This document shows, piece by piece, positions 9,621 to 34,286 of a stretch of 64,000 bases of DNA (position 1 is its first letter; each line of letters opens with the position of its first letter). The notes under the pieces were generated by a model that was not told the origin of the DNA, did no database searches, and was given only the letters and a program-made list of their open reading frames with translations. The DNA lies in assembly GCF_014696435.1 (NCBI RefSeq), contig NZ_JACJQG010000007.1, positions 62,001 through 126,000 on the forward strand. Direction: 5' to 3'. The translations under genes were made by a program, and so were the position numbers. The stretch is from Calothrix anomala FACHB-343. Lineage in GTDB: Bacteria > Cyanobacteriota > Cyanobacteriia > Cyanobacteriales > Nostocaceae.

Positions 9621-10289
9621 ATGCAAACAGTCCAGGGAATGACGGAATTAGAATATGCCTTTCTGTTTACCCTAAGAAAGGTAAATTCCATCAAACTAGA
9701 AGGGTTTAAACCATTTTTTAACAATTTGCCTGTAGACCCTTATATTAAAGGGAATTATCGCTCGCGAAGATTATCCAGATTTACAGTTGTCGGCGATAAA
9801 TTAGTGAAACTACCTCACGGTTATTTCTATCAAAGCAAAGATTACAATCCATTAATGGGAGATATTAAAAGAGAGTTTGCAGAATTGGATGATGCGCTGA
9901 TAGAACTAGATATATTTAAAAGCTTGGTTTTCGCATTTACTGATTCATGTAAACTTCATCCAGAAGCAGAAATAGGAGTGCATCAGATTAGAATTAGCTG
10001 TTCACCTGAGAATATGGGTAATCCTGCGCCTGAAGGTATCCATAGTGATGGTACAGATTTCATCGGTATCTTCTCCGTTAATCGACATAATATTCTCGGT
10101 GGCGAAACACGTCTATATACTGCCAAGAAGGAAAAACCAATTTTTAGTAAAATTCTCAATCCTGGAGAACTTTTATTAGTCAATGACCATGAATTTTTCC
10201 ATTATGCTGCTCCCATTAAACCAGAAATTCCAGAGCAAGGAACATGGGATGTTTTTGTACTAACTTCCCCTAGTTTACTTTCTAATTAA
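9621..10289 (+). CDS. 2OG-Fe(II) dioxygenase family protein (PF10014 type), copy 1
   Basis: A 222-residue protein of the 2OG-Fe_Oxy_2 family, which includes bacterial free-amino-acid hydroxylases such as L-isoleucine 4-hydroxylase. The facial triad is visible as H141-S-D143 and a distal histidine at H194 (H190 is an alternative) in N-D-H-E-F-F-H. P-E-G-I-H-S-D-G and G-G-E-T are typical of the group. The enzyme would use 2-oxoglutarate, O2 and iron to hydroxylate a small substrate, perhaps an amino acid; the substrate is unknown. It is about 84% identical to the next gene and shares its leader, so the two arose by tandem duplication. Confidence 0.85.
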   Translation: MQTVQGMTELEYAFLFTLRKVNSIKLEGFKPFFNNLPVDPYIKGNYRSRRLSRFTVVGDKLVKLPHGYFYQSKDYNPLMGDIKREFAELDDALIELDIFKSLVFAFTDSCKLHPEAEIGVHQIRISCSPENMGNPAPEGIHSDGTDFIGIFSVNRHNILGGETRLYTAKKEKPIFSKILNPGELLLVNDHEFFHYAAPIKPEIPEQGTWDVFVLTSPSLLSN

Positions 10290-10765: not shown

Positions 10766-11434
10766 ATGCAAACAGTGCGGGGAATAACGGAACTAGAATA
10801 TGCCTTTCTCTTTACCTTAAGAAAGGTAAATTCCATCAGATTAGAAGGTTTTAAACCATTTTTTAACGATATGCCTGTCGATCCTTATATTAAAGGTAAT
10901 TATCGTTCTCGCAGATTATCGCGGTTTGTCGTTGCTGGGGATGAGTTAATTAAACTACCTCATGGTTATTTATTTCAAAGCAAAGAATACAACCCATTAG
11001 TAGGAGATATTAAAAGAGAGTTTGCCGAATTAGATGATGCGATGATTGAACTCGACATCTTTAAAGAGATGATTTTCGCATTTACTGATTCTTGCAAAAT
11101 TCATCCCGAAGCAGAGATAGGAGTGCATCAAATTAGAACTAGCTGTTCACCGGATAATATGGGTAATCCTGCACCTGAAGGTATCCATAGTGATGGTACA
11201 GATTTTATCGGTATCTTCTCTGTAGATAGAAACAATATTCAAGGCGGAGAAACACATTTATATACTGGTAAGAAAGAAAAGCCCATTTTTAGTAAAGTTT
11301 TACATCCCGGCGAGCTTTTATTAGTCAACGACCATGAATTTTTCCACTTTACTACTCCCATTAAACCAGAGACTGATGCTTTAGGAACAAGGGATGTATT
11401 TGTATTAACTTCTCCTAGTTTGCTGATTAATTAA
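10766..11434 (+). CDS. 2OG-Fe(II) dioxygenase family protein (PF10014 type), copy 2
   Basis: A 222-residue paralog of the preceding gene with the same iron ligands (H141, D143, H194 by alignment without gaps). Differences are concentrated in surface-like positions, for example E-I-P-E-Q-G-T-W becoming E-T-D-A-L-G-T-R near residue 205, and S-L-V becoming E-M-I near 101. Both copies look intact, so a second substrate or dosage are equally possible. A hairpin with arms AAGGGTGTG and CGCACCCTT lies shortly after the stop (about 11468-11500) but lacks a T tract. Confidence 0.85.
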   Translation: MQTVRGITELEYAFLFTLRKVNSIRLEGFKPFFNDMPVDPYIKGNYRSRRLSRFVVAGDELIKLPHGYLFQSKEYNPLVGDIKREFAELDDAMIELDIFKEMIFAFTDSCKIHPEAEIGVHQIRTSCSPDNMGNPAPEGIHSDGTDFIGIFSVDRNNIQGGETHLYTGKKEKPIFSKVLHPGELLLVNDHEFFHFTTPIKPETDALGTRDVFVLTSPSLLIN

Positions 11435-18415: not shown

Positions 18416-20236
18416 ATGGTTAGTGTATTGCTGGTTGATGACCAAAATTGTATTAGAAGATACTTGGAAGCTCTACTAGATCCAGTTTTGGATTTACAAG
18501 TAATCGCTAAGACTCCAAAAGGGAAAAATCCGATTGAACAAGTAGCTACTCTACAGCCTGATATAGTCCTCATAGATATAGATACACTCCGCTTAGATGG
18601 AGTGCGAGTAACTCAGACTATCTGTCAGCGATTTCCACTAGTCAAAGTTCTGTTGTTAAGTAGTGACGATCGCGACGAATATATCCATGAAGCCTTAGAT
18701 GCTGGAGCAATGGGCTATTTGCTCAAAGATGCATCAACTGAGGAATTTCGCGATTCCATGCGCTTTTTTTGTGAAAGTTATAGTGAGTTAGAAGCTCATT
18801 TTCCCGAAGAATCCCTGGTAAAAGTTCCCGTAGCTAGTTCAGTCTCTGCAAACTCAGCTTATGAAGAATCTGCTGTCAAACTTCCTGCGGCAGAGAGAAG
18901 ACTCAGTTTACCTGCGACTCATTCATCTCACTTGAAGTCAGCCGGAAACTTAACCCTACTACCAAGCAAGCAAAAAGAGATTCCCACTGAAGCCAATCCC
19001 CCATCACCTAAACAAATAGGTTGGCAGCAATTATTAATCCTACTCATGATTGCGGTGGGTGGGACAACTGGTATATATCTGATCCGCCAAGCCTTGAGAA
19101 CGCCGTTACCATCTTTGAGCTACTTACAACAGCAATCAGCCTTGATGGGTACAGAATTTAGCGGTAAAGTGAAGCCCGCAAAGATAGTCAAAATCGCCGC
19201 TTCTAGCCCTTCAGTAGTAGAAAAGATTAATGTGAATATTGGCGATCGCGTGCAACTCGATCAACCCCTGATGGTGGTAAAAAATCCAGAGGGAGACAGG
19301 GAAATTGAACAAATTTTGCAGCAACGCCAAAGCCTGCTACAACAGGAACAAGCAGCACTCCAACAACAGCAAGCAGCGCAACAAAAAGTATTTATCTGGG
19401 AACAGAAAATTAGCGATATCAAGCAAAACGAATCCCCTCTAGCTGAAAAGATAGCCGATGCAGATTTAGAGCTATCCTTATCGCAGAGCGAAGCTGATAA
19501 ACTGCCTTTACCCCAAAGACAAGATTCGATAGAAAGAACCAAAGCTATATACGAAAGAGCGCAATCACGAGTGCGACGGTTCGGACAACTTTATCAACAA
19601 GGTGCGATCGCTAAAGATCAGCTAGAACAAGCCGAAGCAGATATGAGAGTCGCTAAAGCAGATTATCAAGTAGCTATAGATGCTGCAACTGCCGCCAACG
19701 ATTTAGAACGCGCCAAAAAGCAGAAATCTCAGTTACAGCGTCAAGTTTCCCTAGAACAACAAAAACTCAAGCGCCAAGAACTAGAGCAACAATTAAAAAA
19801 TCTGCGTTTAGAAGCGCAACAAGCCACCGAACGATTAAAATTAATTCGGCAACAAGCAACTCAGCTATTCCAACGACAAATGCCATCGACAAATACCATA
19901 GTCAAGGCAACAACATCAGGCGTAGTGGTACAACTACCAGTCAAGATAGGCGATCAAATCTTTACTGGCAATCCCCTCTTAGAATTGGCTCAACTTAAGT
20001 ACCTCAACGTGGAAGTATTGGTGAATGCGCGCATCATTAATGCTCTACGTCCAGGTCAAAAAGCCACTGTGAAAGTCGGTGTCGGTAAAACTGCGCAGAA
20101 ATTTACAGGAAAAATCATCACGATTAATCCTATACCCGCAGAGAACATGAATCACAGTGTTGAGATCCAATTTGAAAATCCTGAAGATGCTTTACTAGTG
20201 GGGCAAATGGCATCTATCCAGTTTTTAAAAGAGTAA
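18416..20236 (+). CDS. Receiver-TM-HlyD fusion (membrane fusion protein with response-regulator domain)
   Basis: A 606-residue fusion. Residues 1-120 are a NarL-type receiver: acidic pair D8-D9, phospho-acceptor D54 in L-I-D-I-D, S82/S83, K104 in L-L-K-D-A. Residues 121-200 are a low-complexity linker. One TM helix spans about 203-223. The rest is an HlyD-type periplasmic adaptor: a lipoyl-like half (I-K-I-A-A-S-S-P near 262, V-N-I-G-D-R-V), a Gln-rich coiled coil (about 295-500), the second lipoyl half and a beta barrel. Alg44 has the same plan with PilZ in place of the receiver. It is first in a tight unit with the PelF-type gene and the GH135-like gene, so it likely controls or couples polymer export. 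Confidence 0.85.
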   Translation: MVSVLLVDDQNCIRRYLEALLDPVLDLQVIAKTPKGKNPIEQVATLQPDIVLIDIDTLRLDGVRVTQTICQRFPLVKVLLLSSDDRDEYIHEALDAGAMGYLLKDASTEEFRDSMRFFCESYSELEAHFPEESLVKVPVASSVSANSAYEESAVKLPAAERRLSLPATHSSHLKSAGNLTLLPSKQKEIPTEANPPSPKQIGWQQLLILLMIAVGGTTGIYLIRQALRTPLPSLSYLQQQSALMGTEFSGKVKPAKIVKIAASSPSVVEKINVNIGDRVQLDQPLMVVKNPEGDREIEQILQQRQSLLQQEQAALQQQQAAQQKVFIWEQKISDIKQNESPLAEKIADADLELSLSQSEADKLPLPQRQDSIERTKAIYERAQSRVRRFGQLYQQGAIAKDQLEQAEADMRVAKADYQVAIDAATAANDLERAKKQKSQLQRQVSLEQQKLKRQELEQQLKNLRLEAQQATERLKLIRQQATQLFQRQMPSTNTIVKATTSGVVVQLPVKIGDQIFTGNPLLELAQLKYLNVEVLVNARIINALRPGQKATVKVGVGKTAQKFTGKIITINPIPAENMNHSVEIQFENPEDALLVGQMASIQFLKE

Positions 20237-20241
20237 TATTG

Positions 20242-21762
20242 ATGAAGAAACTCTCTGTATTATTAACTACGGAAGGGACGTATCCGTATCATAAAGGTGG
20301 TGTGAGTACCTGGTGCGATGTTTTAATCAGCCAACTACCAGAGATAGATTTTCATGTATTGGCGATCGCAGCTAACCCCTACCTAGAGTTACGCTATAAA
20401 TTACCAGATAATATCAAGCAACTAGTTAAAGTACCCTTGTGGGGAACAGAAGACCCTGTAGAATACTCTTGGCGCTTTCCCTTTTCTCAAGCCTTTAAAA
20501 GCAAAATCGCCACTACCAACAGAGTAATTTCCAGCCAATTTATCCCTTTATTTGAGAGTTTTTTAACAGCCATCCTCTTTGGCCAAGCAGATATTGAAAA
20601 ATTAGGCTACCTCATCCTAGCCATTTATAAATATTTTCAGCGTTATGACTACCACAAAACAATGGAGTCAAAACAGGTATGGTCAACTTTTCAAAAATTA
20701 ACCTCTACTCATTGGCATCCGTTAGTTAATCCGGCTACCGTCACCCTTCTAGAACAGACGGAAGCCATGCGCCTACTTTATCGGTTTCTGATCCCCATTC
20801 ATATCCCTGTTCCTCAAACCGATCTCACCCATGCCTCATCTGCTGGTTTTTGTAGCTTACCTTGTGTCATTGCCAAATTAGAACGAGGCACGCCCTATCT
20901 ACTCACAGAACATGGTATCAATATCCGAGAGCAGTATCTCAACTTAAATCGCAGTATTCCCTCCCTCTTTGTCCGACAATTTTTATATCGTTTAATGGGA
21001 GCCGTAGTTAAGGTTAACTACCACTACGCCGATCAAGTTTCTCCCGTGTGCGAATACAATGCCCGTTGGGAGCGTTGGTGGGGTATCCCCGACCATAAAA
21101 TCAAGGTGATTTATAACGGAGCCGATCCGAATATTTATCATCCTACCCCGCCAGTGACAAAAGAACGCCCTCAAGTCATGAACATGGGCTTAATTTTCCC
21201 CCTCAAAGGACAACTGGATTTAATCGCCGCCGCCGCTATTGTTCGCGAGAGAATCCCTAATGTAGAATTTCGCTTTTATGGGCGTCCTTCCGATGAAAAG
21301 TATTTTGCCCAATGTCAAGAACTAGTACGTACCCATAAATTAGAAGACAATATCAACTTTGCTGGCTTTACCAGCGAACCTTGGCGCGCGTACAGTGAAG
21401 CCGATGTTGTAGCGATGTCGAGTATTTCCGAAGGTTTCCCTTACGCGCTGATTGAAGCCATGCTTTCAGGAGCTACCATTGTTTCTACTGATGTAGGTGG
21501 CGTCAATGAAGCATTAGGTGATACAGGATTGATGGTGCAAGCCCATCGCCCACAAGCCCTAGCTGCGGCAATTTTACAGCTACTCGAATTACCTGAAGAA
21601 GAAAGGCGAAAATTCGGTCAGCGAGCCTATGAACGCGCCATAAATCTATTTACACAGCAAAAATTCTTAGATGCCCACCTAGATACTTATTACCATCTCA
21701 CACAGCGAGTAATAAAAGACACAATGCCCAAAAAAGAATTGGCGATCGCATCTTCTATGTAA
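20242..21762 (+). CDS. pelF: PelF-type GT4 glycosyltransferase
   Basis: A 506-residue cytoplasmic glycosyltransferase from the ATG at 20242 (a TTG three bases earlier is less likely). The N-terminal part T-E-G-T-Y-P-Y-H-K-G-G-V-S-T-W is the hallmark of the PelF/DUF3492 group; P. aeruginosa PelF has a similar length. The C-terminal E397-G-F-P-Y-A-L-I-E405 is the E-x7-E donor motif. PelF polymerises the Pel chain from UDP-sugars. The gene begins five bases after the receiver-HlyD stop codon and ends just before the GH135-like gene, so the three are almost certainly one operon. Confidence 0.75.
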   Translation: MKKLSVLLTTEGTYPYHKGGVSTWCDVLISQLPEIDFHVLAIAANPYLELRYKLPDNIKQLVKVPLWGTEDPVEYSWRFPFSQAFKSKIATTNRVISSQFIPLFESFLTAILFGQADIEKLGYLILAIYKYFQRYDYHKTMESKQVWSTFQKLTSTHWHPLVNPATVTLLEQTEAMRLLYRFLIPIHIPVPQTDLTHASSAGFCSLPCVIAKLERGTPYLLTEHGINIREQYLNLNRSIPSLFVRQFLYRLMGAVVKVNYHYADQVSPVCEYNARWERWWGIPDHKIKVIYNGADPNIYHPTPPVTKERPQVMNMGLIFPLKGQLDLIAAAAIVRERIPNVEFRFYGRPSDEKYFAQCQELVRTHKLEDNINFAGFTSEPWRAYSEADVVAMSSISEGFPYALIEAMLSGATIVSTDVGGVNEALGDTGLMVQAHRPQALAAAILQLLELPEEERRKFGQRAYERAINLFTQQKFLDAHLDTYYHLTQRVIKDTMPKKELAIASSM

Positions 21763-21767
21763 ACACC

Positions 21768-22622
21768 ATGACCAAAAACAATTGTACAGACGCGATTAAT
21801 CGTGTCTCTAACAAATCCCACAAATTAATCATGAGTACCTTATTGACAGCAACACTTGCTTGCAGTGCTATCAAGCCAGAAACTGCTATAGCTCAAACTA
21901 AAATTCTCATTCCCCTATATTCCTATCCTACCTGGTACAATCCCCCAACTTACACTTGGCCGCAAGTCGCAGCAGCAGCCAAACAAGTACCAATTACCGC
22001 CATTATTAATCCTAATAACGGCCCCGATAATGGCCCCCCCAACAGAGACTACGCCAGAGGGATTCAAGACCTCAGACAAGGGGGAGTAACAATCCTGGGT
22101 TATGTAGCCACAAATTACGGTAAGCGCAATATTAATCAAGTCAAAGCCGATATTGATATCTACGCTAAACACTTTCATCTTGATGGAATTTTCTTAGATG
22201 AAGCCGCTAGCGGAGCAGATAAACTCGACTATTATCAGGAAATTTACAAACATATTAAAACTCAGCCTAAATTGCAAATGGTTGTACTCAACCAAGGAAC
22301 TCAAACCGATCAAGGTTATCTAACTCGACCAGCTGGCGATAATTTAGTAATTTTTGAAAATTATTCCAAAGCTTGGAATGAATACCAGCCTCAGTCATAT
22401 ATCAAAGATTACGCAGCCAAGCATTTTTCCTGTTTAATTCACTCTGTCCCTGATGCAGCCACCATGAAAAAACATATCAATCAAGCAGTGGCGCGCAATA
22501 TCCAATATATCTATATCACAGATGATAGTCCCGATAATCCTGACAAAGATCCTTGGAATAGCCTACCCTCTTACTGGCAAGAACAAATAAATCATATCCG
22601 TTCCTTAAATCAAAAAATATAG
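21768..22622 (+). CDS. Exported Spherulin-4 / GH135-type glycosidase
   Basis: A 284-residue exported protein of the spherulin-4 (Sph3-like) group, which cleaves alpha-1,4-GalN/GalNAc polymers; PelA has a related hydrolase domain. The core has L-I-P-L-Y-S-Y-P-T-W, G-Y-V-A-T-N-Y-G and the acidic pair D144-E145 in G-I-F-L-D-E-A; E197 in V-I-F-E-N-Y is a further candidate catalytic acid. A hydrophobic stretch (about 21-34) and A-I-A-Q form a signal peptide. The first ATG is five bases after the pelF-type stop, but codons 5-14 come from a dispersed 30-bp palindrome, so the start at M22 (21831) is possible. Confidence 0.75.
   Translation: MTKNNCTDAINRVSNKSHKLIMSTLLTATLACSAIKPETAIAQTKILIPLYSYPTWYNPPTYTWPQVAAAAKQVPITAIINPNNGPDNGPPNRDYARGIQDLRQGGVTILGYVATNYGKRNINQVKADIDIYAKHFHLDGIFLDEAASGADKLDYYQEIYKHIKTQPKLQMVVLNQGTQTDQGYLTRPAGDNLVIFENYSKAWNEYQPQSYIKDYAAKHFSCLIHSVPDAATMKKHINQAVARNIQYIYITDDSPDNPDKDPWNSLPSYWQEQINHIRSLNQKI
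21779..21808. repeat. 30-bp palindromic repeat inside a coding sequence (copy A)
   Basis: Matches the reverse complement of 35953-35982 at all but two positions. The core is GACGCGATTAATCGTGTC. It overlaps the first codons of the GH135-like gene. Confidence 0.8.
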
Positions 22623-22623
22623 C

Positions 22624-22651
22624 TGTTGACTGTTGACTGTTGACTGTTGAC
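22624..22651. repeat. STRR heptamer tract (TGTTGAC)4
   Basis: Four copies in the short gap between two convergent genes. Confidence 0.85.
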
Positions 22652-22690
22652 TAATGACAGCCTTAACCAGCTATTTTTAATTGCATCGCC

Positions 22691-24502
22691 CTATTTAGGG
22701 AGCTGATCTTCAGGAACCTGAATTTGATAAATTCTCAAATCCCGATCTTCATAATAAATAGCCACATCTTTCTCATGGAGGTGACGATAAGTCTCACACA
22801 ACTGCAAAGCCGTAAATTCTAAACTCGCACGCCCAGCTGACGAACGATAATTACGATAGGTAGGGTCAGATAAAACCGAATAGGGAAGTGTGTAATTTTC
22901 GCTAATTCCCGTAACCAATGGTCTTTTTTCCACCAAGATAAACATATTTTCGACGGAATAACGAAAATGAAAATCAGGATTGCTAACTTTAGCAGCATAC
23001 TTTTCAACAAATAAACCCAAATCCTCATACCAACCTGCACCATAACTTTCTGCAAGTTGTTCAACAGGAGCCACAATTAACCAGCGCTTGATCGGGAATC
23101 TCGCTCTTAGTTCTAGGGTTTTACGTGCAGCTATCTCATATTCTAGATAACTAAGTTTGGGCGGATTTGGCAACAAAAAATTAACTGCGATCGCAAACAC
23201 TAAAATCAAGCAGGTAATTTCCGACCATAAACCCAGTACCAGACTCAGCAACCAGCTAACAGGGATTAACATCAATCCCCAAAGCCAGCTTAGTCCTACA
23301 GGGAGTGTCACTAAAAAACTGCTTTCCCATCCTAAAGGATTTTCCGGTAAAGCAGAGACTAAAGCTAACAATATCCAACTCGTAGTCATGACAGTCAGCG
23401 CTATTCTTCCAGCAAAGAAAAAGCTCATACCGCCAATTAATGCCAAAACTAATAAAGTGGGTTTAGCGATCGCCACAATCGTCAAGCAACAAACTGTATC
23501 AATCACAGCATCTCGACGGTGTAAACTTCTCGATGCTTCCCAACCTCGTGCTAATCCTAAAACTAGAAATATCGCGCCTATTTCTAAGTTACCCCCAGCC
23601 CATTGACGAATTAAGGAGGAATTTAAACTTTCTGTCACCGTTGTCAGCCATTGCTGTAACCATAGCGGCGTAACCTGAGATAATTCTAGATGAGAAGTGA
23701 ACAGATAAGCCCCTAAGCTATACATAGCACCAAAGCCTGCTGTTCTATTTTGAGAAATTACGCCCAGACTATAGCCAACACTTAACACCAACAGACAACC
23801 TAACAAAGGGTTAAGAAAGCGGATAACTTGCATAGCATCAACCGCACCCAACAGAGATAAGACGCTAGCCAAAGTAGACAATGTAGGAAAAGAGTGAATC
23901 TGTCCCGGCCAATCCCCAGCGATAATTTGTCTAGTAGCTAGTAACACCCCATAACTATCAGGATTACCAAACCGCAGTTCCCGTAAGGGATGCTCAAACC
24001 GCAGTAATACAGCAAAGGTCAGGATGACAGCGAGCAGTAGCACCTCTAGGATATTTTGTGAAAGTGCGATCGCGATTAATTTCTCCACCATCGCCAATTC
24101 TTCTTTCCCAAACTGCAGAATTCTCTGCCAACCTTGACGAATTTTCGGTAAAAAGCCTTGATCTAGTGCATCTAAAACAATACATCCTACCCTCTGATTG
24201 ATCAGTTGTAACTGTTTTCTGAAGCGCCAATTATGGTGATGTAACCAGCGCAGTAAAAAACAACCACCATATAAAAATACCAGCGTAAACCAGCTAAACA
24301 AGTGCAACGCACTCAGCAGCCAAACCCCAAATAAAGTAACTAGCACTATTCGCGACCAGCTACCAACTATGCGGCTAGCCCAAGACATTTTATCTGGAAA
24401 AATAAAAACTTTGCTGGGTAGCCAAATAAAGACAATTACAAACAACATCACTACCCATATAGTAGTGAGTACATCAAAAATAACAGTTTGCAGAAATATC
24501 AC
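22691..24502 (-). CDS. Polytopic membrane protein, GT-C-like, unknown
   Basis: A 603-residue protein with about ten TM segments, two near the N-terminus and the rest between 150 and 440, followed by a soluble C-terminal domain (about 445-603). The architecture resembles GT-C glycosyltransferases or polymer ligases that use lipid-linked sugars. A first-loop acidic motif is weak (F-G-N-P-D-S-Y near 190). It lies inside the polysaccharide locus but on the opposite strand, so it has its own promoter. It does not look like PelD or PelE, since no GAF or TPR region is seen. Role in the same pathway is inferred from position only. Confidence 0.6.
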   Translation of the reverse strand: MIFLQTVIFDVLTTIWVVMLFVIVFIWLPSKVFIFPDKMSWASRIVGSWSRIVLVTLFGVWLLSALHLFSWFTLVFLYGGCFLLRWLHHHNWRFRKQLQLINQRVGCIVLDALDQGFLPKIRQGWQRILQFGKEELAMVEKLIAIALSQNILEVLLLAVILTFAVLLRFEHPLRELRFGNPDSYGVLLATRQIIAGDWPGQIHSFPTLSTLASVLSLLGAVDAMQVIRFLNPLLGCLLVLSVGYSLGVISQNRTAGFGAMYSLGAYLFTSHLELSQVTPLWLQQWLTTVTESLNSSLIRQWAGGNLEIGAIFLVLGLARGWEASRSLHRRDAVIDTVCCLTIVAIAKPTLLVLALIGGMSFFFAGRIALTVMTTSWILLALVSALPENPLGWESSFLVTLPVGLSWLWGLMLIPVSWLLSLVLGLWSEITCLILVFAIAVNFLLPNPPKLSYLEYEIAARKTLELRARFPIKRWLIVAPVEQLAESYGAGWYEDLGLFVEKYAAKVSNPDFHFRYSVENMFILVEKRPLVTGISENYTLPYSVLSDPTYRNYRSSAGRASLEFTALQLCETYRHLHEKDVAIYYEDRDLRIYQIQVPEDQLPK

Positions 24503-25433
24503 AATTATTTACATTAATCTATATTGAAATTTCACCAGCCTAAAATCAGTTAACAGCAAATTTGACTGTCACAGCGCCCAGTGTCCAAATTTAGGCTAGT
24601 ATTGGCACCTGAATGATTATAAATTGATTAGTCAATAATATTGATAAAGCTATCATGAAAACCGATGCAAAAGTCTTCTCATAATAGTTTTTTAAATTGC
24701 CCAGAGTCTTACTCTGTTGGCGCTATCAGCTTGATTACAACATGCTAATTAGCTGTTCAAAGGCAAGCAATCACAAAAAAATGAGGAAAATCTGAAGAAA
24801 GTAAAGTTAGTATTTTCACTGCTCTTAACGAATACTTTATAGATAGTTTATTGATTCTTTATATGAATTGTAATATGTTGAATAGCGGCAATTGATATTA
24901 TGAAAACTGCCAAGACTAATTTTAATACAACTTACTTAAACAATACTTAACATAGTTCAATGTTCTCCTAAAGGTAGGGAATAATAATGCTGAAAAGCAA
25001 TAGCATAAAATCCACAAAAATATTGTGAAGAGCAGGATAACTTTTTGCTGATGAAATAACATATAATTTGTATTTTCAACACAAAATCAAAAAACAAGCA
25101 CTGAAAAATTTACCTGTAGTTTATGGTCTAATAAGTATTTACATAAGACAATAGATGTATGATATCAACCAAATTAAAATTAATCTCAAATTGGAGTAAA
25201 ATTCCAATTTATTACTCAAAAATTGCTAATATAACCTAAATTTCTAGAGATGCAATAAAAAAACGCTGAATACTAGAATACTATAAGTGATTGGTTGATA
25301 ATCTGCTGTTAGAACAAAATTTTGGCATAGAAGGTAAACAATTTGCCTTCTAGCCAAATTTTTGATGCATAAATAGAAAAAGTTATTTATGCGGGTTAAA
25401 AAATTATGTTTCCTTTCATTCAGGTAGAAAACA
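24503..25433. other. 931-base divergent intergenic region before the epimerase gene
   Basis: No credible gene. It is AT-rich and must contain promoters for the GT-C-like gene and the epimerase gene. Two hairpins lie just before the epimerase (25317-25410) and are listed separately. Nothing else with clear structure was seen. Confidence 0.5.
25317..25410 (+). promoter_or_regulatory. Two consecutive leader hairpins before the epimerase gene
   Basis: First, AAATTTTGGC-x-TAGAAGG pairs with CCTTCTA-GCCAAATTTTT (about 25317-25366), a long stem with one bulge. Second, GCATAAATA pairs with TTATTTATGC (about 25367-25393). The second is not followed by a T run. A leader-based control of epimerase expression is possible; an inactive terminator is another reading. 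Confidence 0.45.
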
Positions 25434-26645
25434 ATGTCTAAAAAAGTATTAGTAACCGGAGGCGCTGGTTATATCGGCTCCCACACCGTCCGTCAACTAG
25501 GAGAAGCTGGTTATGATGTAGTGGTTTATGACAATCTCTCTAGTGGTTCTGCTGCATCAGTCATCTATGGAGAATTAGTTATTGGTAGCCTTGACGATCA
25601 AAAACTATTAGCTCAAACTTTTAGTCAACATAAATTTGATGCAGTCTTGCATTTTGCCGCCTATCTATCTGTACCAGAATCAATAGTCAAACCTCTTGAC
25701 TACTATAGTAATAATACTTCTAACACCCTAAATTTATTACGTTGTTGTCAATTATTTGATGTTAAAAAAATAATTTTTTCCAGTACAGCTGCTGTTTATG
25801 GTCAACCTGAAGACAATCTAGTCACAGAGTTATCACCGACCAAACCCATGAACCCCTACGGTCGCTCCAAACTGATGAGCGAACAAATCATTCAAGACTT
25901 TGCACAAGCATCAGAATTAAAATACGCAATCTTGCGTTACTTTAACGTCGCTGGTGCAGATACCACCGGAAAATTAGGTCAATCTGCAAAAAAAGCCGAA
26001 CACTTAATTAAAGTAGCTTGTGATGCAGCTTTAGGTCGTCGTCCCTCCGTCAGTATCTTTGGCACCGACTTTCCCACCCCAGATGGAACTGGAATTAGAG
26101 ATTACATCCATGTAGAAGATTTAGCTACAGCCCATGTAGATGCATTGCGCTATCTAGAAGCAGGAAATGAGAGTCAAATATTCAACTGTGGCTATGGCCA
26201 AGGCTATAGCGTGCGAGAAGTTTTAAAGATGGTGCAGAAAATCTCTGGAGTAGACTTTCCTGTAATTGAACACCAACGGCGTGCAGGCGATCCAGCTTGT
26301 GTGGTTGCTAGTTCTGATAAAATTCGCAATATCTTAGGTTGGGAACCCAAATATAACAGTTTAGCAACCATTGTCTCTACAGCTTTAAACTGGGAAAAAA
26401 AATTAATTGCTCTGGCTACATTAGAAAAACAGCTAGCCCAAGAAAATTTTCGGCTAGGTGCGCTATTGCTAGAAAGCAAAAATATTTCACCTACTCAATT
26501 AGAACAAGCATTACAAGAGCAAGCCCTGACTCAGCAAAAATTAGGAGAAATACTAGTACAAAAATCTATTATTTCTGCACAAATGCTAGAGAAATTTTTG
26601 CTAGAGCAAACTTGGAGAAGACAAGGAATTTGGCTGCAAGTATAA
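25434..26645 (+). CDS. galE: UDP-sugar 4-epimerase (GalE) with C-terminal MshEN-like domain
   Basis: A 403-residue protein. Residues 1-325 are a complete GalE-type short-chain dehydrogenase: G9-G-A-G-Y-I-G-S-H NAD motif, S116-S-T and Y142-x3-K146. It should interconvert UDP-Glc/UDP-Gal or the GlcNAc/GalNAc pair. The extension 326-403 carries two 24-residue motifs, R340-L-G...Q363 and K369-L-G...Q392, separated by five residues (A-L-T-Q-Q). This is the layout known for the c-di-GMP-binding MshEN domain of type II/IV secretion ATPases. Departures are K369 for Arg and K349/S378 for Gly. PelX-type epimerases supply UDP-GalNAc for Pel, so this may be a c-di-GMP-tuned precursor enzyme (inference). 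Confidence 0.85.
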   Translation: MSKKVLVTGGAGYIGSHTVRQLGEAGYDVVVYDNLSSGSAASVIYGELVIGSLDDQKLLAQTFSQHKFDAVLHFAAYLSVPESIVKPLDYYSNNTSNTLNLLRCCQLFDVKKIIFSSTAAVYGQPEDNLVTELSPTKPMNPYGRSKLMSEQIIQDFAQASELKYAILRYFNVAGADTTGKLGQSAKKAEHLIKVACDAALGRRPSVSIFGTDFPTPDGTGIRDYIHVEDLATAHVDALRYLEAGNESQIFNCGYGQGYSVREVLKMVQKISGVDFPVIEHQRRAGDPACVVASSDKIRNILGWEPKYNSLATIVSTALNWEKKLIALATLEKQLAQENFRLGALLLESKNISPTQLEQALQEQALTQQKLGEILVQKSIISAQMLEKFLLEQTWRRQGIWLQV

Positions 26646-26740
26646 ATAGCCTAGCCTGGTTAATAATCGGTAAATCTAGAAAGTTGTGGAAATTTTGGCA
26701 GATATAACTGCATATTTCCACTTAGGCATTAAGTAAAAAT

Positions 26741-26785
26741 AAGTAGTGCGAGCATCTTGCTCGCGCGGGCATCTTGCCCGCACTA
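26741..26785. repeat. Double hairpin repeat (GCGAGCATCTTGCTCGC and GCGGGCATCTTGCCCGC)
   Basis: Two adjacent hairpins with the same CATCTTG loop lie inside an outer inverted repeat GTAGTGCG/CGCACTAC. This is a known style of cyanobacterial intergenic repeat. It lies between the epimerase and the large deacetylase gene and lacks a T tract. Confidence 0.75.
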
Positions 26786-26937
26786 CAAATATTAAATTGT
26801 TCAACTTATTTTTACACGACTCCTTAAGTTCAAGTGGTCAATTACTGCCGAAATGCAGACATATTTCTGCCGAAATCACATATCAATTTCAAGCATAAAT
26901 TTTTCTCAAAAATCTACCTCTTGGAGAAGCAAATCAC

Positions 26938-29900
26938 ATGTCTAATGACCTGCAACTAATCAAGCTAGAAGAACTGCTCAAAAGAGCAATCGGTAACATT
27001 AGTGAATTCTTCACCTCTGCTGATTATTCACAAAAAATGAATTTAGCATTTGGTAAAGATTGGAATCCAGCAAAAGCTCAGAAAGTAATTAAAGACATAA
27101 TCAATTATTCCAGCTTACCCAGCATTAAAATAGTTGAGGCATCAGCAATAAACGGAGGAAAAGGAGCTTTTGGTAGTTTCAACAATACAATTTATCTATC
27201 AAAAGCACTGTTAAACGATTCTACCGAAAGTGTGGATGTATTAATAGAAGAACTCGGACACTATATAGACTCGCAAATAAATAGCCAAGATGCACAGGGC
27301 GATGAAGGCGAAATTTTTTCAGCAGTAGTTCAAGGTAAAGAGTTAACGCCAACTCAACTAGCAGCATTGAAAAGTCAGAATGATACAACCAGTGTCTTGA
27401 TCGATGGAGAAGTCAGAACATTAGAGCTAGCAACAACTTACGGTAATATTACCCTCGATGGTAACCTCAGCGATTGGACAGCAAAGGATAGATTAGATTT
27501 TCTTCCCGGAACAGGAGTACAAGGATTTGAAATCTATGGGAAGTATACAGGTGATGCCTATGTTTTTGCCTTAAAGGCAGATAACCTGGCGATAGGTGCA
27601 AACACAACATTATGGCTAAATACAGATAGGAATTCTACGACAGGCTATCAAATATTTGGTACATCTGGGGGCGCAGAGTATAACGTTAACTTCGCAGCAG
27701 ATGGCTTACCCTATCTTTACACAGGAGCAGCCGGAGAAAATTCTATTAGACCATTAGATTATGGCTTTAGTAGCGATCAAAAAATAGTTGAATTCGCCGT
27801 ACCAGGATCGAATCTGGGAACATCAGTACCACAAGCAATTGATATTTTAGGGGATATTAATAACACGGCATTTATACCGGGAGATTATGCTACCCAAAAA
27901 TACACAGTATATGGGGGACAAAATCTACCAACAAGAACAGATCTGAGTAAAAAAGTAGGTATAGTTTTTTCAGCAACTACAGCGAAACAATTTTTTAGCG
28001 AAACAGCGTATCACCAACTGTTCTTGTCGATGCAAAGCCAAGCGATGCAGGCAGGGATTCCCTTTGATATTCTCACAGAGGATGACTTAACTGATATCAA
28101 TAAAGTTGTCAATTATGATTCGCTAATCTTTCCCTACTTTGCAAATGTACCCCTGGCGAAACTAGATGCCATTCAAGAGACACTCACAAAGGCAGTTTAT
28201 CAATATAACATTGGTCTAATTACCGCCGGAAATTTCTTAACTAACGATGAAAACGGTAATGCTTTACCCGGAAATTCCTATACCCGGATGGAGCAGTTGT
28301 TGAATCTGAAAAGAACTGGTGGTAGCACCACACCGGTTAATGGTGTTCTCAACGCTGAAATTACTACTCATCCAGTGATGCAAGGGTACAATCCGGATGA
28401 GGTAATTCGCAATTACAATAACATTACCTATGACACTTATGGTGATGTTGACCCTAATGATAATAAAACACCCATAGTTCTCGCAGATTTTCTGGTAAAT
28501 GGGCAGAAAGACAATGCTGTGCTAGCGACACAAACCGGAGGCAGAAATGTCCACTTTAGTACTCCGGGATTCATGGCGGATAACAATTTATTGTGGAAAG
28601 CATTGCAATGGGCTGTTCTGGATGAGAAACCCAAAGTCGCTTTAAATATGAGTCGGGATGCGAGTATTTTTATTTCTCGCAATGACATGGATCAGTCTCA
28701 AGAAGCTGATGATGTGAATCCAAATGGAAACACTCCAGGAGTTTACGATAAACTGCTGCCAATTCTAGAGCAATGGAAAAATGACTATAACTTTGTAGGG
28801 TCATACTACATTAACGTCGGTAACAATCCAGCCAATGGGCAATTTACTGATTGGACTGTCTCCAAGCCTTACTATGACAGGATGCTGGCTCTACAAAACG
28901 AAATTGGTACCCACTCTTACACTCACCCAGAAGACACAAATCAGAGTACATATAAAGAAAATAATGCATCGGCTCCTGTAAGTCCCACTCTTACTAATGC
29001 ACAATATGCTACCAAGTTGGAGTTTGAATTTAACCAATCACAATTAGTCATTGAGCAACAATTAGGAATTACCGTTACAGGTGCAGCGATTCCCGGAGCG
29101 CCAGAAGGTATAGGAGTTTCCAAAGAGCTTCAGAAATACTTATCCTATGTTTCTGGTGGTTATGCAAGTGTGGGTGCAGGTTATCCTAATGCTTTTGGCT
29201 TTTTGTTTCCGGAGAATAAGGATTATGTTTATCTTGCTCCGAACATGTCCTTTGATTTTTCGCTGGTGCAGTTTCGCCAGTTAACACCACAACAAGCGGA
29301 AGCAGAATGGCTCAAAGAATACACTGGCTTAACAAATCGCGCAGCCCAAGCCATCATCCATTTTCCATGGCATGATTATGGCCCAACAGTGTGGGATACA
29401 GATCCAACGGATAACTCAGGCTCGCCTTACACTCAGGCAATGTTTACTAATTTCATTGCCAGAGCATACAACGATAATACAGAGTTTATTACGGCTGAGG
29501 AGTTGAGCCAGCGCATCAGAACTTTTGAGAAATCACAATTAACTCTTGATTATCCCAGTGCAAATACTATTACTGCCACTGTTGCCGGAGTTACTGATGT
29601 AGGCGCTTTTGGTTTGAATATCGATCCCACTCAAACCATTAAAAGTGTCAATGGTTGGTATGCCTACGATAAAGATACGGTATTTTTACCACGTAATGGC
29701 GGTAAATTTACAATCAATTTGGGCACAACTCAAGATGATGTAACCCGTATTATTGACCTACCAATGCGTGCCGAATTAACTTCAGTTGTTGGTAATGGTA
29801 CAGATTTAGAATTTTCATTCTTTGGTGAAGGTAAAGTTGTCTTAGATATCAAAAATCCCGGTGCATTGAGTCTAGTAACCGAAGGTGCAAGCAGTACAAC

Positions 29901-31209
29901 TCGTAACGGTGAGATTGTCGAGATGACTTTTAACGGTCTTGCCCAACATACTGGTAGGGTGAGATTAGTTGTGGATGCGCCACCAACTGTTGCTAACCCC
30001 ATTGCTGATGTCAGTGTTCTTGAGGATGCAGCAGATACTGTCATTAGTCTCAGCAATGTCTTCATAGATATTGATAACGCTGCTACTGGCATTACCAAGA
30101 CAGTTAAAGCTAATAGTAATAGTGGCTTAGTTAATGCCAGCATTGCTAACAATAATTTGACTCTGGATTATCTACCTAACCAATTTGGGACTGCGACAAT
30201 TACTATTACCGGTACATCGAATGGCAAAACTGTTGATGATACCTTTACAGTCAATGTAACACCTGTAGATGATGCACCGATTGTGGGTACTCCAATTGCC
30301 GATGTTGTTGTTAATCAAGGTTCTGCTAACACAGTTATCAATTTAGGTAGTGTCTTTACTGATATAGATAACGACGTTGCGGCGATTACTAAGTCGATTC
30401 TCTCCAACAGCAATAACACCTTGGTGAATGCCTCAATTGTAGGTAATTCTTTAACCTTGCAATATTTACCCAATCAATTTGGTACTGCACAAGTGACTGT
30501 GCGTGGTACATCTGGCGGTAAAACGGTTGATGATACATTTAGCGTCACTGTTAATCCGGTAGGCAATGTGATTAACGGCAACTCTTTCGGTAACTTCCTT
30601 ATAGGGACTTTTAATAGAGATATCATTAACGGATTTGGCGGTAATGACACCATAGATCCTAAAGATGGTAATGATGTTGTTTATGGTGGCGATGGTGCAG
30701 ATTATGTTTGGGGAAGTTTTGGAGATGATGCGATTTTTGGAGATGCTGGTAATGACAATTTATCTGGTGGCTCAAATAACGATACTCTCACAGGTGGTAG
30801 AGGTTATGACACATTAGATGGTGACTCAGGAATTGATACTCTGATTGGTGTCAACCCCAACGATACCTTGGCAGGAGTAGGGGAGATTGATACCTTCTAT
30901 GGTGACGATCAAGCTGATTTATTTATATTGGGTGATAGAAGTAAGGCTTACTACAATGATGGTAATAATTTTACCTCTGGCACAGGGGATTATGCGCTAA
31001 TTGAAGACTTCAGTACCTTTGAAGGGGATAGAATTCAACTCTATGGTAGTGCCGCAAACTATATACTTACTGGTGTGTCATTTAATTTCTCCTTCGGTTC
31101 CCATCGATCACTTTACTTAAGAACTAGCGGACAGGATGAACTCATTGGAATTATTGAAGGAAATAATAGTCTGAGTCTCACTAGTAGCAGTTTCACTTAT
31201 GTGAGCTAA
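26938..31209 (+). CDS. Large PelA-like deacetylase/adhesin with RTX repeats
   Basis: A 1423-residue modular protein. Residues 1-150: cyanobacterial N-terminal domain with E104-E-L-G-H-Y-I-D, a possible degenerate metal motif. About 165-335: beta-sandwich like CBM9/DOMON. About 338-560: Rossmann/flavodoxin-like domain (K-V-G-I-V-F-S). About 570-880: NodB/CE4-like deacetylase with N582-D-M-D585 and H659-S-Y-T-H663 metal motifs. About 885-1015: beta-sandwich. About 1018-1205: two cadherin-like repeats. About 1220-1315: RTX nonapeptides (G-G-N-D-T-I-D), the usual mark of type I secretion. P. aeruginosa PelA has the order hydrolase, Rossmann-like, deacetylase, beta-jelly roll; here the hydrolase is a separate gene. 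GGAG precedes the ATG. Confidence 0.8.
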   Translation: MSNDLQLIKLEELLKRAIGNISEFFTSADYSQKMNLAFGKDWNPAKAQKVIKDIINYSSLPSIKIVEASAINGGKGAFGSFNNTIYLSKALLNDSTESVDVLIEELGHYIDSQINSQDAQGDEGEIFSAVVQGKELTPTQLAALKSQNDTTSVLIDGEVRTLELATTYGNITLDGNLSDWTAKDRLDFLPGTGVQGFEIYGKYTGDAYVFALKADNLAIGANTTLWLNTDRNSTTGYQIFGTSGGAEYNVNFAADGLPYLYTGAAGENSIRPLDYGFSSDQKIVEFAVPGSNLGTSVPQAIDILGDINNTAFIPGDYATQKYTVYGGQNLPTRTDLSKKVGIVFSATTAKQFFSETAYHQLFLSMQSQAMQAGIPFDILTEDDLTDINKVVNYDSLIFPYFANVPLAKLDAIQETLTKAVYQYNIGLITAGNFLTNDENGNALPGNSYTRMEQLLNLKRTGGSTTPVNGVLNAEITTHPVMQGYNPDEVIRNYNNITYDTYGDVDPNDNKTPIVLADFLVNGQKDNAVLATQTGGRNVHFSTPGFMADNNLLWKALQWAVLDEKPKVALNMSRDASIFISRNDMDQSQEADDVNPNGNTPGVYDKLLPILEQWKNDYNFVGSYYINVGNNPANGQFTDWTVSKPYYDRMLALQNEIGTHSYTHPEDTNQSTYKENNASAPVSPTLTNAQYATKLEFEFNQSQLVIEQQLGITVTGAAIPGAPEGIGVSKELQKYLSYVSGGYASVGAGYPNAFGFLFPENKDYVYLAPNMSFDFSLVQFRQLTPQQAEAEWLKEYTGLTNRAAQAIIHFPWHDYGPTVWDTDPTDNSGSPYTQAMFTNFIARAYNDNTEFITAEELSQRIRTFEKSQLTLDYPSANTITATVAGVTDVGAFGLNIDPTQTIKSVNGWYAYDKDTVFLPRNGGKFTINLGTTQDDVTRIIDLPMRAELTSVVGNGTDLEFSFFGEGKVVLDIKNPGALSLVTEGASSTTRNGEIVEMTFNGLAQHTGRVRLVVDAPPTVANPIADVSVLEDAADTVISLSNVFIDIDNAATGITKTVKANSNSGLVNASIANNNLTLDYLPNQFGTATITITGTSNGKTVDDTFTVNVTPVDDAPIVGTPIADVVVNQGSANTVINLGSVFTDIDNDVAAITKSILSNSNNTLVNASIVGNSLTLQYLPNQFGTAQVTVRGTSGGKTVDDTFSVTVNPVGNVINGNSFGNFLIGTFNRDIINGFGGNDTIDPKDGNDVVYGGDGADYVWGSFGDDAIFGDAGNDNLSGGSNNDTLTGGRGYDTLDGDSGIDTLIGVNPNDTLAGVGEIDTFYGDDQADLFILGDRSKAYYNDGNNFTSGTGDYALIEDFSTFEGDRIQLYGSAANYILTGVSFNFSFGSHRSLYLRTSGQDELIGIIEGNNSLSLTSSSFTYVS

Positions 31210-31259
31210 AAAATTTCTAGCCTTGAATTTGCGGCAATTGGTGAGATACAAATAATCTC

Positions 31260-31283
31260 AGGGGCACAAAATTTTGTGCCCCT
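31260..31283 (+). terminator. Perfect 24-bp palindrome between deacetylase and PelG-like genes
   Basis: AGGGGCACAAAA and TTTTGTGCCCCT are adjoining exact arms without a loop. It sits 50 bases after the deacetylase stop and 37 before the next ATG. It could be an attenuating terminator or an mRNA processing site that sets the ratio of the two products; there is no T tract. Confidence 0.5.
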
Positions 31284-31319
31284 AATGATGTTATCTAGAT
31301 TTGATTTAAATACAAAATT

Positions 31320-32867
31320 ATGATTGCAGAAGATGATAAATTATCTGAGTTAGTTAGCGCTATTGAAGAAGTTAGCTCCGCACCTGCTGATTTTTGGCAA
31401 GTTACGGCAATTATAGAATCATTAGGTTATACGGATAGAGTTATTCAGCAGGAATTTGGTTTTAGTGATGCTTTATCGTTGGGTAAGTATGTTTATGAGA
31501 ATCATAACTTTTCTTTAGCAGCGAAAGTCATCAAGCCGAAGAAAAAATTTTGGCGGAATTTGTTGAAAGAGATGCAAATCTTCATTGAACAATTCTCACA
31601 AAGTTTTGTTTTTGCTTTACCTTTGCTGTTGATATTGCTGTTAGAATCTCTTGATGTAGATAATCAATCGCCCCTATTACCACCGGAACTAGCTTCATTA
31701 ATTACTCTGGCAACTATGGCTAGTCTGACTATTAGTGGGGGATTTGTCCAGATGATTAGCCGGAGGGGAGAATTTTATCTCAAATTGGGCGAACCAATAC
31801 AAGCTAGAAGAGTTTGTTTGCCGATTATTTATTTAGGTACAGCTACTAGTATTATTGTAGGTTTATTGGGGCTGTGGTTTGGTTTTTATCAAGGTCAGTT
31901 TGCTGATGAATATTTAATTTTGGCGGCTGTATATTATTTAGTTTTGAGTTTACTGTGGATGCTATTAGCAGCCGTGGGGATTCAATTACGCTGGTGTACG
32001 CCAATAATTATGTTGGGGTTAAGCGGATTATTTGTATTGTTAAGAGTTTGGATTAATCTAGATGCATTAACTGCCCAAATTATTAGTATGTTTGCGACTT
32101 TATTAGTAGTAATCTGCTTAGTTGGTTTTGGGTTTGGTAAAGATAAGAAAGCAAGTCAAACTACTGCAACAAAAGTTCCCTTACCTCGCTTGAGTGCGCT
32201 GGTATATTTATTAGCTCCTTACTTCTTTTATGGCATAGCTTATTTTAGTTTTATTTTTGGCGATCGCATTGTGGCAGGTTGGGCTGTAAATCCTGCTTCG
32301 GGGCTAGTTTTTGCGATTCATGCTGACTATCAACAGGCTATGGATTTAGCTTTAATAAATTTTCTTTTGTTGGTTCCATTCGTGGAATATTTAAGTTATC
32401 GGTTTATTAGTTATTGGTTTAAAAATTCCAAAAATTTAAATGTAACAAAGCTGGCTAAATTTTATCGTCAATTGTCTTATCGCTACTGGTTAACTGTGGG
32501 CTTAACTGTGATATTTTTTAGTCTTTGTGTGACTATTACGTTTCTTTTGCTAAAGCCAGAAAGTTGGAGTTTACAAACAAATTTACAATCGTTATTTGGT
32601 TGCTTAGGTTATTTATTTTTTGTCATCGGACTATTAAATTCAATATTGCTGTTTAGTCTGAATCAAGCAGCTATGGTAGTTAAAAGCATTATTCCTGCGT
32701 TGGTACTTAATTTAACTTTGGGTTACATTTTAGCAAATTTGATTAATCCCGATTGTGCAGTGATTGGTTTAGTCACGGCTGCTATTTTGTTTATGTTGCG
32801 TTCAACTCATAAAGTTTCGCAAGTGATGAAGCAACCGGATTATATATATTACCTTGCTGGATATTAA
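31320..32867 (+). CDS. PelG-like polytopic membrane protein
   Basis: A 515-residue protein with a soluble N-terminal region (1-90) and about twelve TM helices after it. The segment G-I-A-Y-F-S-F-I-F-G-D-R-I-V-A near 320, followed by a conserved-looking polar stretch (A-D-Y-Q-Q-A-M-D-L-A), is similar in plan to the D-(K/R) segment of PelG, a MOP/MATE-related protein thought to move Pel across the inner membrane with PelF. The soluble N-terminal extension is unlike typical PelG. It follows the deacetylase gene by 110 bases. The assignment is by architecture and context rather than strong motif match. Confidence 0.6.
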   Translation: MIAEDDKLSELVSAIEEVSSAPADFWQVTAIIESLGYTDRVIQQEFGFSDALSLGKYVYENHNFSLAAKVIKPKKKFWRNLLKEMQIFIEQFSQSFVFALPLLLILLLESLDVDNQSPLLPPELASLITLATMASLTISGGFVQMISRRGEFYLKLGEPIQARRVCLPIIYLGTATSIIVGLLGLWFGFYQGQFADEYLILAAVYYLVLSLLWMLLAAVGIQLRWCTPIIMLGLSGLFVLLRVWINLDALTAQIISMFATLLVVICLVGFGFGKDKKASQTTATKVPLPRLSALVYLLAPYFFYGIAYFSFIFGDRIVAGWAVNPASGLVFAIHADYQQAMDLALINFLLLVPFVEYLSYRFISYWFKNSKNLNVTKLAKFYRQLSYRYWLTVGLTVIFFSLCVTITFLLLKPESWSLQTNLQSLFGCLGYLFFVIGLLNSILLFSLNQAAMVVKSIIPALVLNLTLGYILANLINPDCAVIGLVTAAILFMLRSTHKVSQVMKQPDYIYYLAGY

Positions 32868-33392: not shown

Positions 33393-34286
33393 TTAATTCT
33401 CTTGTACCAATAAAACTGATTTTACCTGGCGCTTGATGGGTTTGCGTACCAGATTTAGTTTGCCATAAAAAGTTTTACCGTTGTAGTAAAGAGAAGATGA
33501 ACTACCGCCATCTAAATTCATGGCTTTTTTAGCACCAAGAGTTTGCATAAAAGCTGCTAATTCTGGTAAAGACATTCCCGATTTTGCTAGTCGGACATTG
33601 GGTTTTTGGGCTACCATGACTAGGAGAATATTACCATCATCAGTAATCCCGATCGCAGTTCTTGAACTAGGTCGATTGCTATCAATTGCATCTCGTCCAT
33701 TGGCTTTGTCAACAAACCCTTCTGGTTCTGAGGTGAGTTCTGGTAAAAGATTGGGGCCTCCACCTACAACATCGACTATTTGACAGCCAGCTAACGGTGA
33801 TTCATTGTGGGGGGTGATATCGTAGATGACGGTTTCTCCGCAGAGATAGCGACGGAATTCTGTGCGATTGAAAATTTTGCTGAGATAAGGTTTTAAGTTG
33901 GGATTATTTATAAGTCTGGGGTTATCTTGGGGATTTGCTACGACACGCCCAGAAATCATGACATGGGATGTAGACTTTTGATTAACAGGGTCAAAAAAGC
34001 CTGCATTTAAGATTGCTTTGACTCGATGCTGCTTGGTAAATTCATCTACAGTTGCTACTTTATCTGAGATTGCAGGTGTGATGAGAAATCGGCTATCAGT
34101 CGGAATTGAAAGAATATGCACTACGCTTTGCGGTAAGGTACGCTGTTCGTAGCTGATGGTTTTTGGTGGGGGAGGTGCAACATTTGGCACTTTTGATATA
34201 GAGGAATGCAACTTAAATAATAGTGGCATCCCAAAACTAACTAGTGTAAGACTCAGCAGCCAGATTTTTTTGACTTGAGTAGTCAT
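33393..34286 (-). CDS. Phosphodiester glycosidase (NAGPA/DUF2233) family protein
   Basis: A 297-residue protein with an N-terminal hydrophobic segment (W-L-L-S-L-T-L-V-S-F-G-M-P-L-L) acting as signal or anchor. The domain has A-I-L-N-A-G-F-F-D, S-S-R-T-A-I-G-I and the C-terminal A-M-N-L-D-G-G-S-S-S-S, all features of the NAGPA family, whose human member removes GlcNAc from phosphodiesters. Bacterial members are often near exopolysaccharide genes. It may act on envelope glycans or on the neighbouring polymer (inference). Confidence 0.85.
   Translation of the reverse strand: MTTQVKKIWLLSLTLVSFGMPLLFKLHSSISKVPNVAPPPPKTISYEQRTLPQSVVHILSIPTDSRFLITPAISDKVATVDEFTKQHRVKAILNAGFFDPVNQKSTSHVMISGRVVANPQDNPRLINNPNLKPYLSKIFNRTEFRRYLCGETVIYDITPHNESPLAGCQIVDVVGGGPNLLPELTSEPEGFVDKANGRDAIDSNRPSSRTAIGITDDGNILLVMVAQKPNVRLAKSGMSLPELAAFMQTLGAKKAMNLDGGSSSSLYYNGKTFYGKLNLVRKPIKRQVKSVLLVQEN

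Follow-up and report, generated by a model that had tools for sequence, protein, structure and literature searches.

A predicted Pel-like polysaccharide cassette built from exchanged parts in Calothrix anomala and other cyanobacteria

Introduction

Many phyla have Pel loci. A question arises: what would be made and exported by a locus that joins a PelF-type glycosyltransferase to a transporter, a hydrolase and a regulatory module from outside the Pel families? Such a locus, a unit of seven genes, lies within positions 18416..32867 of the window, by which we mean the whole stretch of 64,000 nucleotides analysed, from Calothrix anomala FACHB-343 (assembly GCF_014696435.1, contig NZ_JACJQG010000007.1, positions 62,001 to 126,000 of the forward strand; host genome 9.24 Mb). 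It encodes a receiver-HlyD adaptor, PelF, a Spherulin4-type hydrolase, a membrane protein of 603 residues that we call TM603, an epimerase fused to an MshEN-type module (GalE-MshEN), an RTX protein with a deacetylase core and a MOP-fold transporter. An earlier note, made from the letters alone, had read the locus as Pel-like with altered control, and the ORF list together with Pfam and NCBIfam scans recovered every gene that it named, at the same position. We infer that the seven genes serve to make and export an alpha-1,4-GalNAc polymer, Pel-like and in part de-N-acetylated, by the steps proposed below, and put the probability of this reading at roughly 0.7. The sequences themselves show which genes are there, the families or folds of their products, which residues are conserved and that the genes occur together; substrate, transport direction, the exit of polymer and enzyme, c-di-GMP binding, phospho-control and the part played by TM603 are read from these.

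Results

The protein encoded at 20239..21762 (+ strand) joins a GT4 glycosyltransferase domain to an N-terminal DUF3492 (Pfam, 167.5 bits). NCBIfam places it in PelF at 150.8 bits against a cut-off of 100, with the next-best family at 72.3, and hhalign against six PelF proteins gives 100%, or 99.5% (E 3.8e-22) for the DUF3492 half by itself; it shares 22-26% identity with four PelF proteins. By these sequence comparisons the transferase is PelF, as had been proposed, its best profile match lying inside the Pel families. A tree with other GT4 proteins has long branches and does not group the cyanobacterial and other PelF sequences apart from the rest; it is not used as support. PelF would polymerise the chain at the membrane.

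The genes around PelF are co-conserved in other cyanobacteria, beyond what chance would give and as the earlier note's reading requires. Genome searches scored only the best candidates per genome, three in the phylum searches and seven in the family PelF search. With PelF as query, 5 of 218 family genomes matched at E 1e-60, spread over 3 of 56 genera, and all seven genes were present in each of the five, two of which have a broken PelG-like ORF. Across the phylum, the PelF clade (E 1e-80), TM603 and the full-length PelG-like protein picked out the same 3 of 386 genomes, and so did the HlyD family at E 1e-60 among 367; the PelG-like search returned two extra rows: G303, a remnant interrupted by a stop, and G118, a marginal match (E 4.9e-4). 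The RTX protein as query over named genomes led to 17 loci. In total the cassette is found, with varying gene order, in ten genomes: the window, Tolypothrix FACHB-123, Calothrix brevissima NIES-22, Nostoc CMAA1605 (G388), Nostoc parmelioides FACHB-3921 (G383), G091, Hydrococcus rivularis NIES-593, Planktothricoides SR001, an Oscillatoriales metagenome-assembled genome (MAG) and G449. PelF, HlyD, GalE-MshEN, the RTX protein and the transporter occur in all ten, TM603 in nine (its ORF is shortened in G449, and the Planktothricoides contig stops before its position) and the hydrolase in eight (it is missing from the 22 kb of the Hydrococcus stretch, and in Planktothricoides the contig ends). No ORF of at least 120 aa outside the cassette in the G091, G383 and G388 stretches matches a window ORF at E 1e-6; the cassette has therefore moved as a block. 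G194, taken to be Calothrix brevissima NIES-22, shares three neighbour genes with the window. Desmonostoc geniculatum HA4340-LM1 (L036 811-3404), by coordinates the source of the G303 row, holds only a remnant of the cassette, in which the deacetylase is truncated and the PelG-like gene incomplete.

The activity of PelA had been thought to be split over two genes, and indeed a PelA-type deacetylase gene stands apart from the gene of a likely GalNAc-ase. The deacetylase is the RTX protein, of 1423 aa (26938..31209, +), composed of an N-terminal leader (aa 1-160), a beta domain, a PelA-like core (aa 329-980; 27922..29877, +) and C-terminal repeats with RTX (about aa 1243-1321; 30664..30900, +), the RTX repeats being above the Pfam cut-off (HemolysinCabind) and visible in alignment to solved RTX proteins. 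The PelA-type fold spans the three core domains, alpha/beta, deacetylase and beta-rich, and D583, D585, H659, H663 and H812 form an invariant D-x-D, HxxxH, H pattern (PelA residues compared from an excerpt of PMC12022489). The deacetylase Pfam match remains below threshold, at 16.2 bits against 23.1. Since hhalign against two PelA-type proteins found no match, the link to PelA is drawn from the fold, the residues and the neighbouring genes, and by these the protein is a deacetylase of the PelA type. In a Methylomonas MAG its relatives adjoin genes of PelA type and of PelB, and on Rhodobacterales plasmids they lie together with pelF, pelG, galE and a GH114 gene. Tandem deacetylase copies of 1510 and 2011 aa occur in Calothrix brevissima NIES-22 (L026 7278-18316; also L014/L015), and two tandem genes of this family, with signal-like N-termini and no RTX, in a Marithrix MAG (L033 9803-15371).

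In the second half of the split, at 21768..22622 (+), the earlier proposal stood in part: the gene is separate as claimed, and its product is a Spherulin4/Sph3-type glycoside hydrolase (Pfam, 185.8 bits), not one of PelA type. No GH114 match, as for a PelA-type hydrolase domain (GH114/GH166 kind), is present in the cassette. In phmmer the protein matches the solved spherulin-4 5c5g at E 1.1e-16, and 5d6t is also similar; we take both to be Aspergillus Sph3, of GH135. D144, E145 and E197 are invariant in five of five hydrolase sequences and are presumably the likely catalytic acidic residues. Sph3 and the PelA hydrolase both cleave poly-GalNAc or re-N-acetylated Pel (PMC9135694, in excerpt). 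The hydrolase would trim or clear polymer in the periplasm.

Such an enzyme would also suit a galactosaminogalactan (GAG)-like heteropolymer of Gal and GalNAc/GalN, as in Aspergillus, with GalE supplying UDP-Gal as well and TM603 acting as a second transferase or modifier. The Aspergillus cluster consists of uge3, gtb3, sph3, agd3 and ega3, and a Spherulin4/Sph3-type hydrolase with GalE and a deacetylase resembles it. In a distant MAG (G016, L022 4745-9162) a true PelG and a DUF3492 gene adjoin an Agd3_CE/CBM87 deacetylase and a Spherulin4 gene, a fungal-GAG-like arrangement, and GAG and Pel are chemically close (PMC9135694, same excerpt). Yet our cassette has just one recognised glycosyltransferase, TM603 belongs to no family, and the window deacetylase has no Agd3_CE or CBM87 match at E 10, though the same library matched the L022 locus; we regard the heteropolymer as improbable. 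Agd3, tried as the nearest deacetylase, was rejected on the same comparison; it is not among the structural matches listed, and a distant structural kinship with it may exist.

Precursor supply and an input by cyclic di-GMP (c-di-GMP) appear to meet in one protein, encoded at 25434..26645 (+), in which a GalE-type epimerase (TIGR01179, 470.7 bits, cut-off 262.3) is fused to an MshE-type c-di-GMP domain (NF053729, 55.5 bits, cut-off 38). Both profiles bear out the fusion noticed from the sequence. The tandem motif, as defined in an excerpt of PMC5013675, covers 53 residues (aa 340-392; 26451..26609, +), and a relaxed pattern of two 24-residue motifs with a 5-residue spacer finds it on GalE in 10/10 loci; the NCBIfam MshEN profile is above cut-off in the four loci scanned. 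In the motifs, Gly is retained at position 3, as are the hydrophobic positions and the two glutamines. The module would be the c-di-GMP input, replacing PelD. The epimerase would supply UDP-GalNAc, helped by GlmM or YvcK in some loci. GlmM is encoded in two loci, that of Hydrococcus (586.4 bits, cut-off 447.55) and that of G449 (64% identical). YvcK, annotated as UDP-GlcNAc-binding, is encoded in three: it scores 376.0 bits in G091 and 383.2 bits in Planktothricoides (cut-off 196), and the MAG copy is 92% identical to the Planktothricoides one. These genes in five loci point to an amino-sugar precursor.

The last gene of the unit (31320..32867, +) encodes a protein in the role, and not in the family, of PelG. 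No Pfam profile matches it at E 10, PelG (PF16933) among them; PF16933 finds nothing in the whole genome, while the control did match, and hhalign against six PelG proteins gives 0.5%, deeper alignments likewise giving no PelG membership. The PelG-like transporter of the earlier note is thus ruled out as a PelG by profile. PelG is nevertheless a MOP member, and the model of our transporter has the MOP fold, aligning to WzxE, MurJ and MATE. Its gene immediately follows PelF in four of the ten loci (Hydrococcus, Planktothricoides, the Oscillatoriales MAG and G449), and pelG likewise comes after pelF in Sulfitobacter records. Viral contigs and plasmids searched with it gave no matches. This protein, unrelated in sequence to PelG, would carry the chain outward over the inner membrane.

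The alignment to WzxE and MurJ besides MATE raises a lipid-linked, Wzx-like route, in which the PelF-type transferase and TM603 build or polymerise the glycan, the MOP protein flips it, and deacetylase and hydrolase then act. The polytopic nature of TM603 would fit, as would a tree in which PelF from cyanobacteria and PelF from elsewhere do not come together apart from the remaining GT4 proteins. We hold this route to be very unlikely, given a cassette with a single glycosyltransferase and no initiating phosphoglycosyltransferase in the Pfam scan, a DUF3492 half that matches PelF so closely, and a deacetylase family that elsewhere resides in pel loci.

How would the polymer, in the Pel-like reading that we prefer, reach the outside? 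The first gene (18416..20236, +) encodes a CheY-like receiver (aa 4-114; Pfam, 70.9 bits), one transmembrane helix (about 204-226) and a periplasmic membrane-fusion, or adaptor, part (HlyD_D23, 61.9 bits). The phospho-acceptor D54 and K104 are conserved in 8/8 aligned rows, the acid pocket being variable. The receiver-HlyD fusion of the earlier note is real in the window, but it is not constant: the receiver is below cut-off in Planktothricoides (28.4 against 30.2), the Oscillatoriales MAG copy is similar in the alignment, and the HlyD of G449 has no receiver domain. Because the receiver is weak in two of ten loci and absent in one, control by phosphorylation would be accessory at best. What had been proposed as one cationic GalNAc-type polymer under phosphorylation and c-di-GMP control keeps its gene set and its c-di-GMP module, and phosphorylation recedes to this minor part. 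RND, CzcB/NccB and DevB types are the best NCBIfam matches of the adaptor, none of them reaching its cut-off, and the best 25 of 49 include no type I HlyD family. Outside the cassette, three ORFs of the genome match the TolC family (OEP), one of them marginally. Together with a TolC whose gene lies elsewhere, the HlyD-type adaptor would form the link to the outside, replacing PelB and PelC.

The deacetylase itself looks, by its sequence, type I-secreted, a feature not in the earlier note. RTX is present, and a signal peptide absent by eye, in all ten untruncated cyanobacterial copies. RTX sites are found in 4/4 Rhodobacterales copies, the single scanned one scoring 22.5 bits against Pfam's 23, and in none of nine other proteobacterial copies, which have signal-like N-terminal stretches by eye. 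The leader domain occurs in seven of ten carriers, the exceptions being Planktothricoides, the MAG and the G449 ORF, and recurs in seven further ORFs of the Calothrix anomala genome, four of them with RTX sites. PelA itself is exported via Sec (PMC12022489, in excerpt). The PelA-type deacetylase, having lost the hydrolase domain and gained RTX, would exit by a type I route and make the polymer cationic.

These same copies, and the presence of the adaptor within the block in 10/10 loci, would equally fit an HlyD that serves only for type I secretion of the deacetylase, the polymer leaving by another outer-membrane route. This agrees with the Pel-like reading in all except the polymer's exit, and we treat it as a serious possibility, if one that we lean away from: the cassette has no ABC transporter, and the best adaptor matches, all below cut-off, are of RND, CzcB/NccB and DevB type, the best 25 of 49 holding none of the type I kind.

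TM603 (22691..24502, -), which the earlier note did not mention, is a 603-aa protein, polytopic by hydropathy, with a conserved C-terminal soluble part and no Pfam or NCBIfam match. Its gene is divergent and is co-conserved with the other cassette genes. A GT-C transferase, of which the protein gives a passing impression, was set aside as its identity. The stretch at 24503..25433 separates TM603 from galE and is, from this gene layout, the presumed control region.

Discussion

Several observations weigh against a Pel-like system. No PelB, PelC, PelD or PelE is seen among the cassette genes, as had been noted, though for PelC and PelE no genome-wide search was made; the PelD_GGDEF and PelB profiles have no match in the genome, but no control genome matched either of them, the PelB profile having matched in Methylomonas. 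The transporter lies outside the PelG family, and a Pfam scan finds no ABC transporter for type I export in the cassette. PelA is absent from the Foldseek top 50. The base-activating H526 of PaPelA, two residues before the catalytic base, is Arg581 here in 24 of 24 rows, and as a conserved His is thereby replaced the deacetylase is not filed as CE21. Motif I of the MshEN module lacks Gly10 in 10/10 loci and its first basic residue (Arg/Lys) in 2/10. A frame change breaks the transporter ORF of G091 (L017 10246-11364) and that of Nostoc CMAA1605 (L019 353-1597, the same gene in L025), and in G449 (L052 9662-12001) the deacetylase frame is split into two overlapping ORFs and the TM603 ORF shortened. 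The frame changes of L017 and L019 may reflect either real decay or an assembly error.

A stronger version of the Pel-like reading is that Pel has here been rebuilt with three steps moved: c-di-GMP acting at precursor supply and not at the synthase complex, exit by way of MOP, HlyD and TolC in place of PelG, PelB and PelC, and an extracellular deacetylation, carried out by an RTX form of PelA that is secreted by the type I route. In its entirety we consider this version tentative and rather unlikely.

Compared with pelABCDEFG of Pseudomonas aeruginosa, the cassette has PelF and the alpha/beta, deacetylase and beta-rich domains of PelA with the same catalytic pattern, and its predicted MOP-type inner-membrane transport and c-di-GMP input would be shared as well. 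It differs in a separate Spherulin4-type hydrolase gene, a non-PelG transporter, an HlyD adaptor, the PelB to PelE proteins not seen, a c-di-GMP module placed on the epimerase, and a deacetylase with RTX and no Sec signal. Closer in layout are pelDEADAFG of Bacillus cereus and other Gram-positives, where, in the available parts of PMC7112168 and PMC13254593, PelA is likewise split into deacetylase and hydrolase genes, galE adjoins, and the c-di-GMP receptor PelD can bear an epimerase domain. By analogy, GalE-MshEN may join these two functions through different domains. The Gram-positive loci, according to the same parts, retain PelD, PelE and PelG, their fusion is epimerase-GAF-GGDEF whereas ours is epimerase-MshEN, and their deacetylase PelADA is classed as CE26.

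Rhodobacterales plasmid pel loci (Cereibacter, Sulfitobacter) share the RTX deacetylase family, pelF, galE and a GalN-type hydrolase gene, with TolC annotated nearby in Sulfitobacter. They differ in having a true PelG (158.7 bits, Cereibacter), a polysaccharide-export protein, a GH114 hydrolase and a GalE without MshEN by eye. The Aspergillus cluster is alike in Sph3-type hydrolase, epimerase, GT4 and separate deacetylase; here, by contrast, Agd3_CE/CBM87 profiles are unmatched and transporter and adaptor are bacterial.

Gram-positives already provide examples of both a split PelA and a galE linked to pel. New is the union of MOP transporter, Spherulin4 hydrolase, GalE-MshEN, adaptor and RTX deacetylase in one cyanobacterial block. 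In the open-licence literature searched we found no publication on a cyanobacterial pel locus; in the portions available, 'cyanobacteri' is absent from the main texts of PMC7112168, PMC12022489 and PMC13254593, and occurs once in PMC7112194, in the reference list. If the reading is right, some cyanobacteria produce a cationic GalN-type matrix from exchanged parts, in that the hydrolase is of fungal type, the transporter is a different one, the epimerase carries a c-di-GMP module and the deacetylase is exported. It would then be testable which Pel export parts are replaceable and whether c-di-GMP acts on sugar-nucleotide supply, and the cassette would be a compact tool for producing such a polymer in phototrophs.

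Directly after the cassette, a gene of the phosphodiester glycosidase family (NAGPA, PF09992) lies at 33393-34286 (-) of the window, and it also adjoins the cassette in Calothrix NIES-22. Farther away, 53678-55027 (+) is, judged by eye, the C-terminal portion of a split DnaE that opens with an intein C-part, and 9621-10289 and 10766-11434 (+) are tandem ORFs of 222 aa, very similar to each other and dioxygenase-like by eye.

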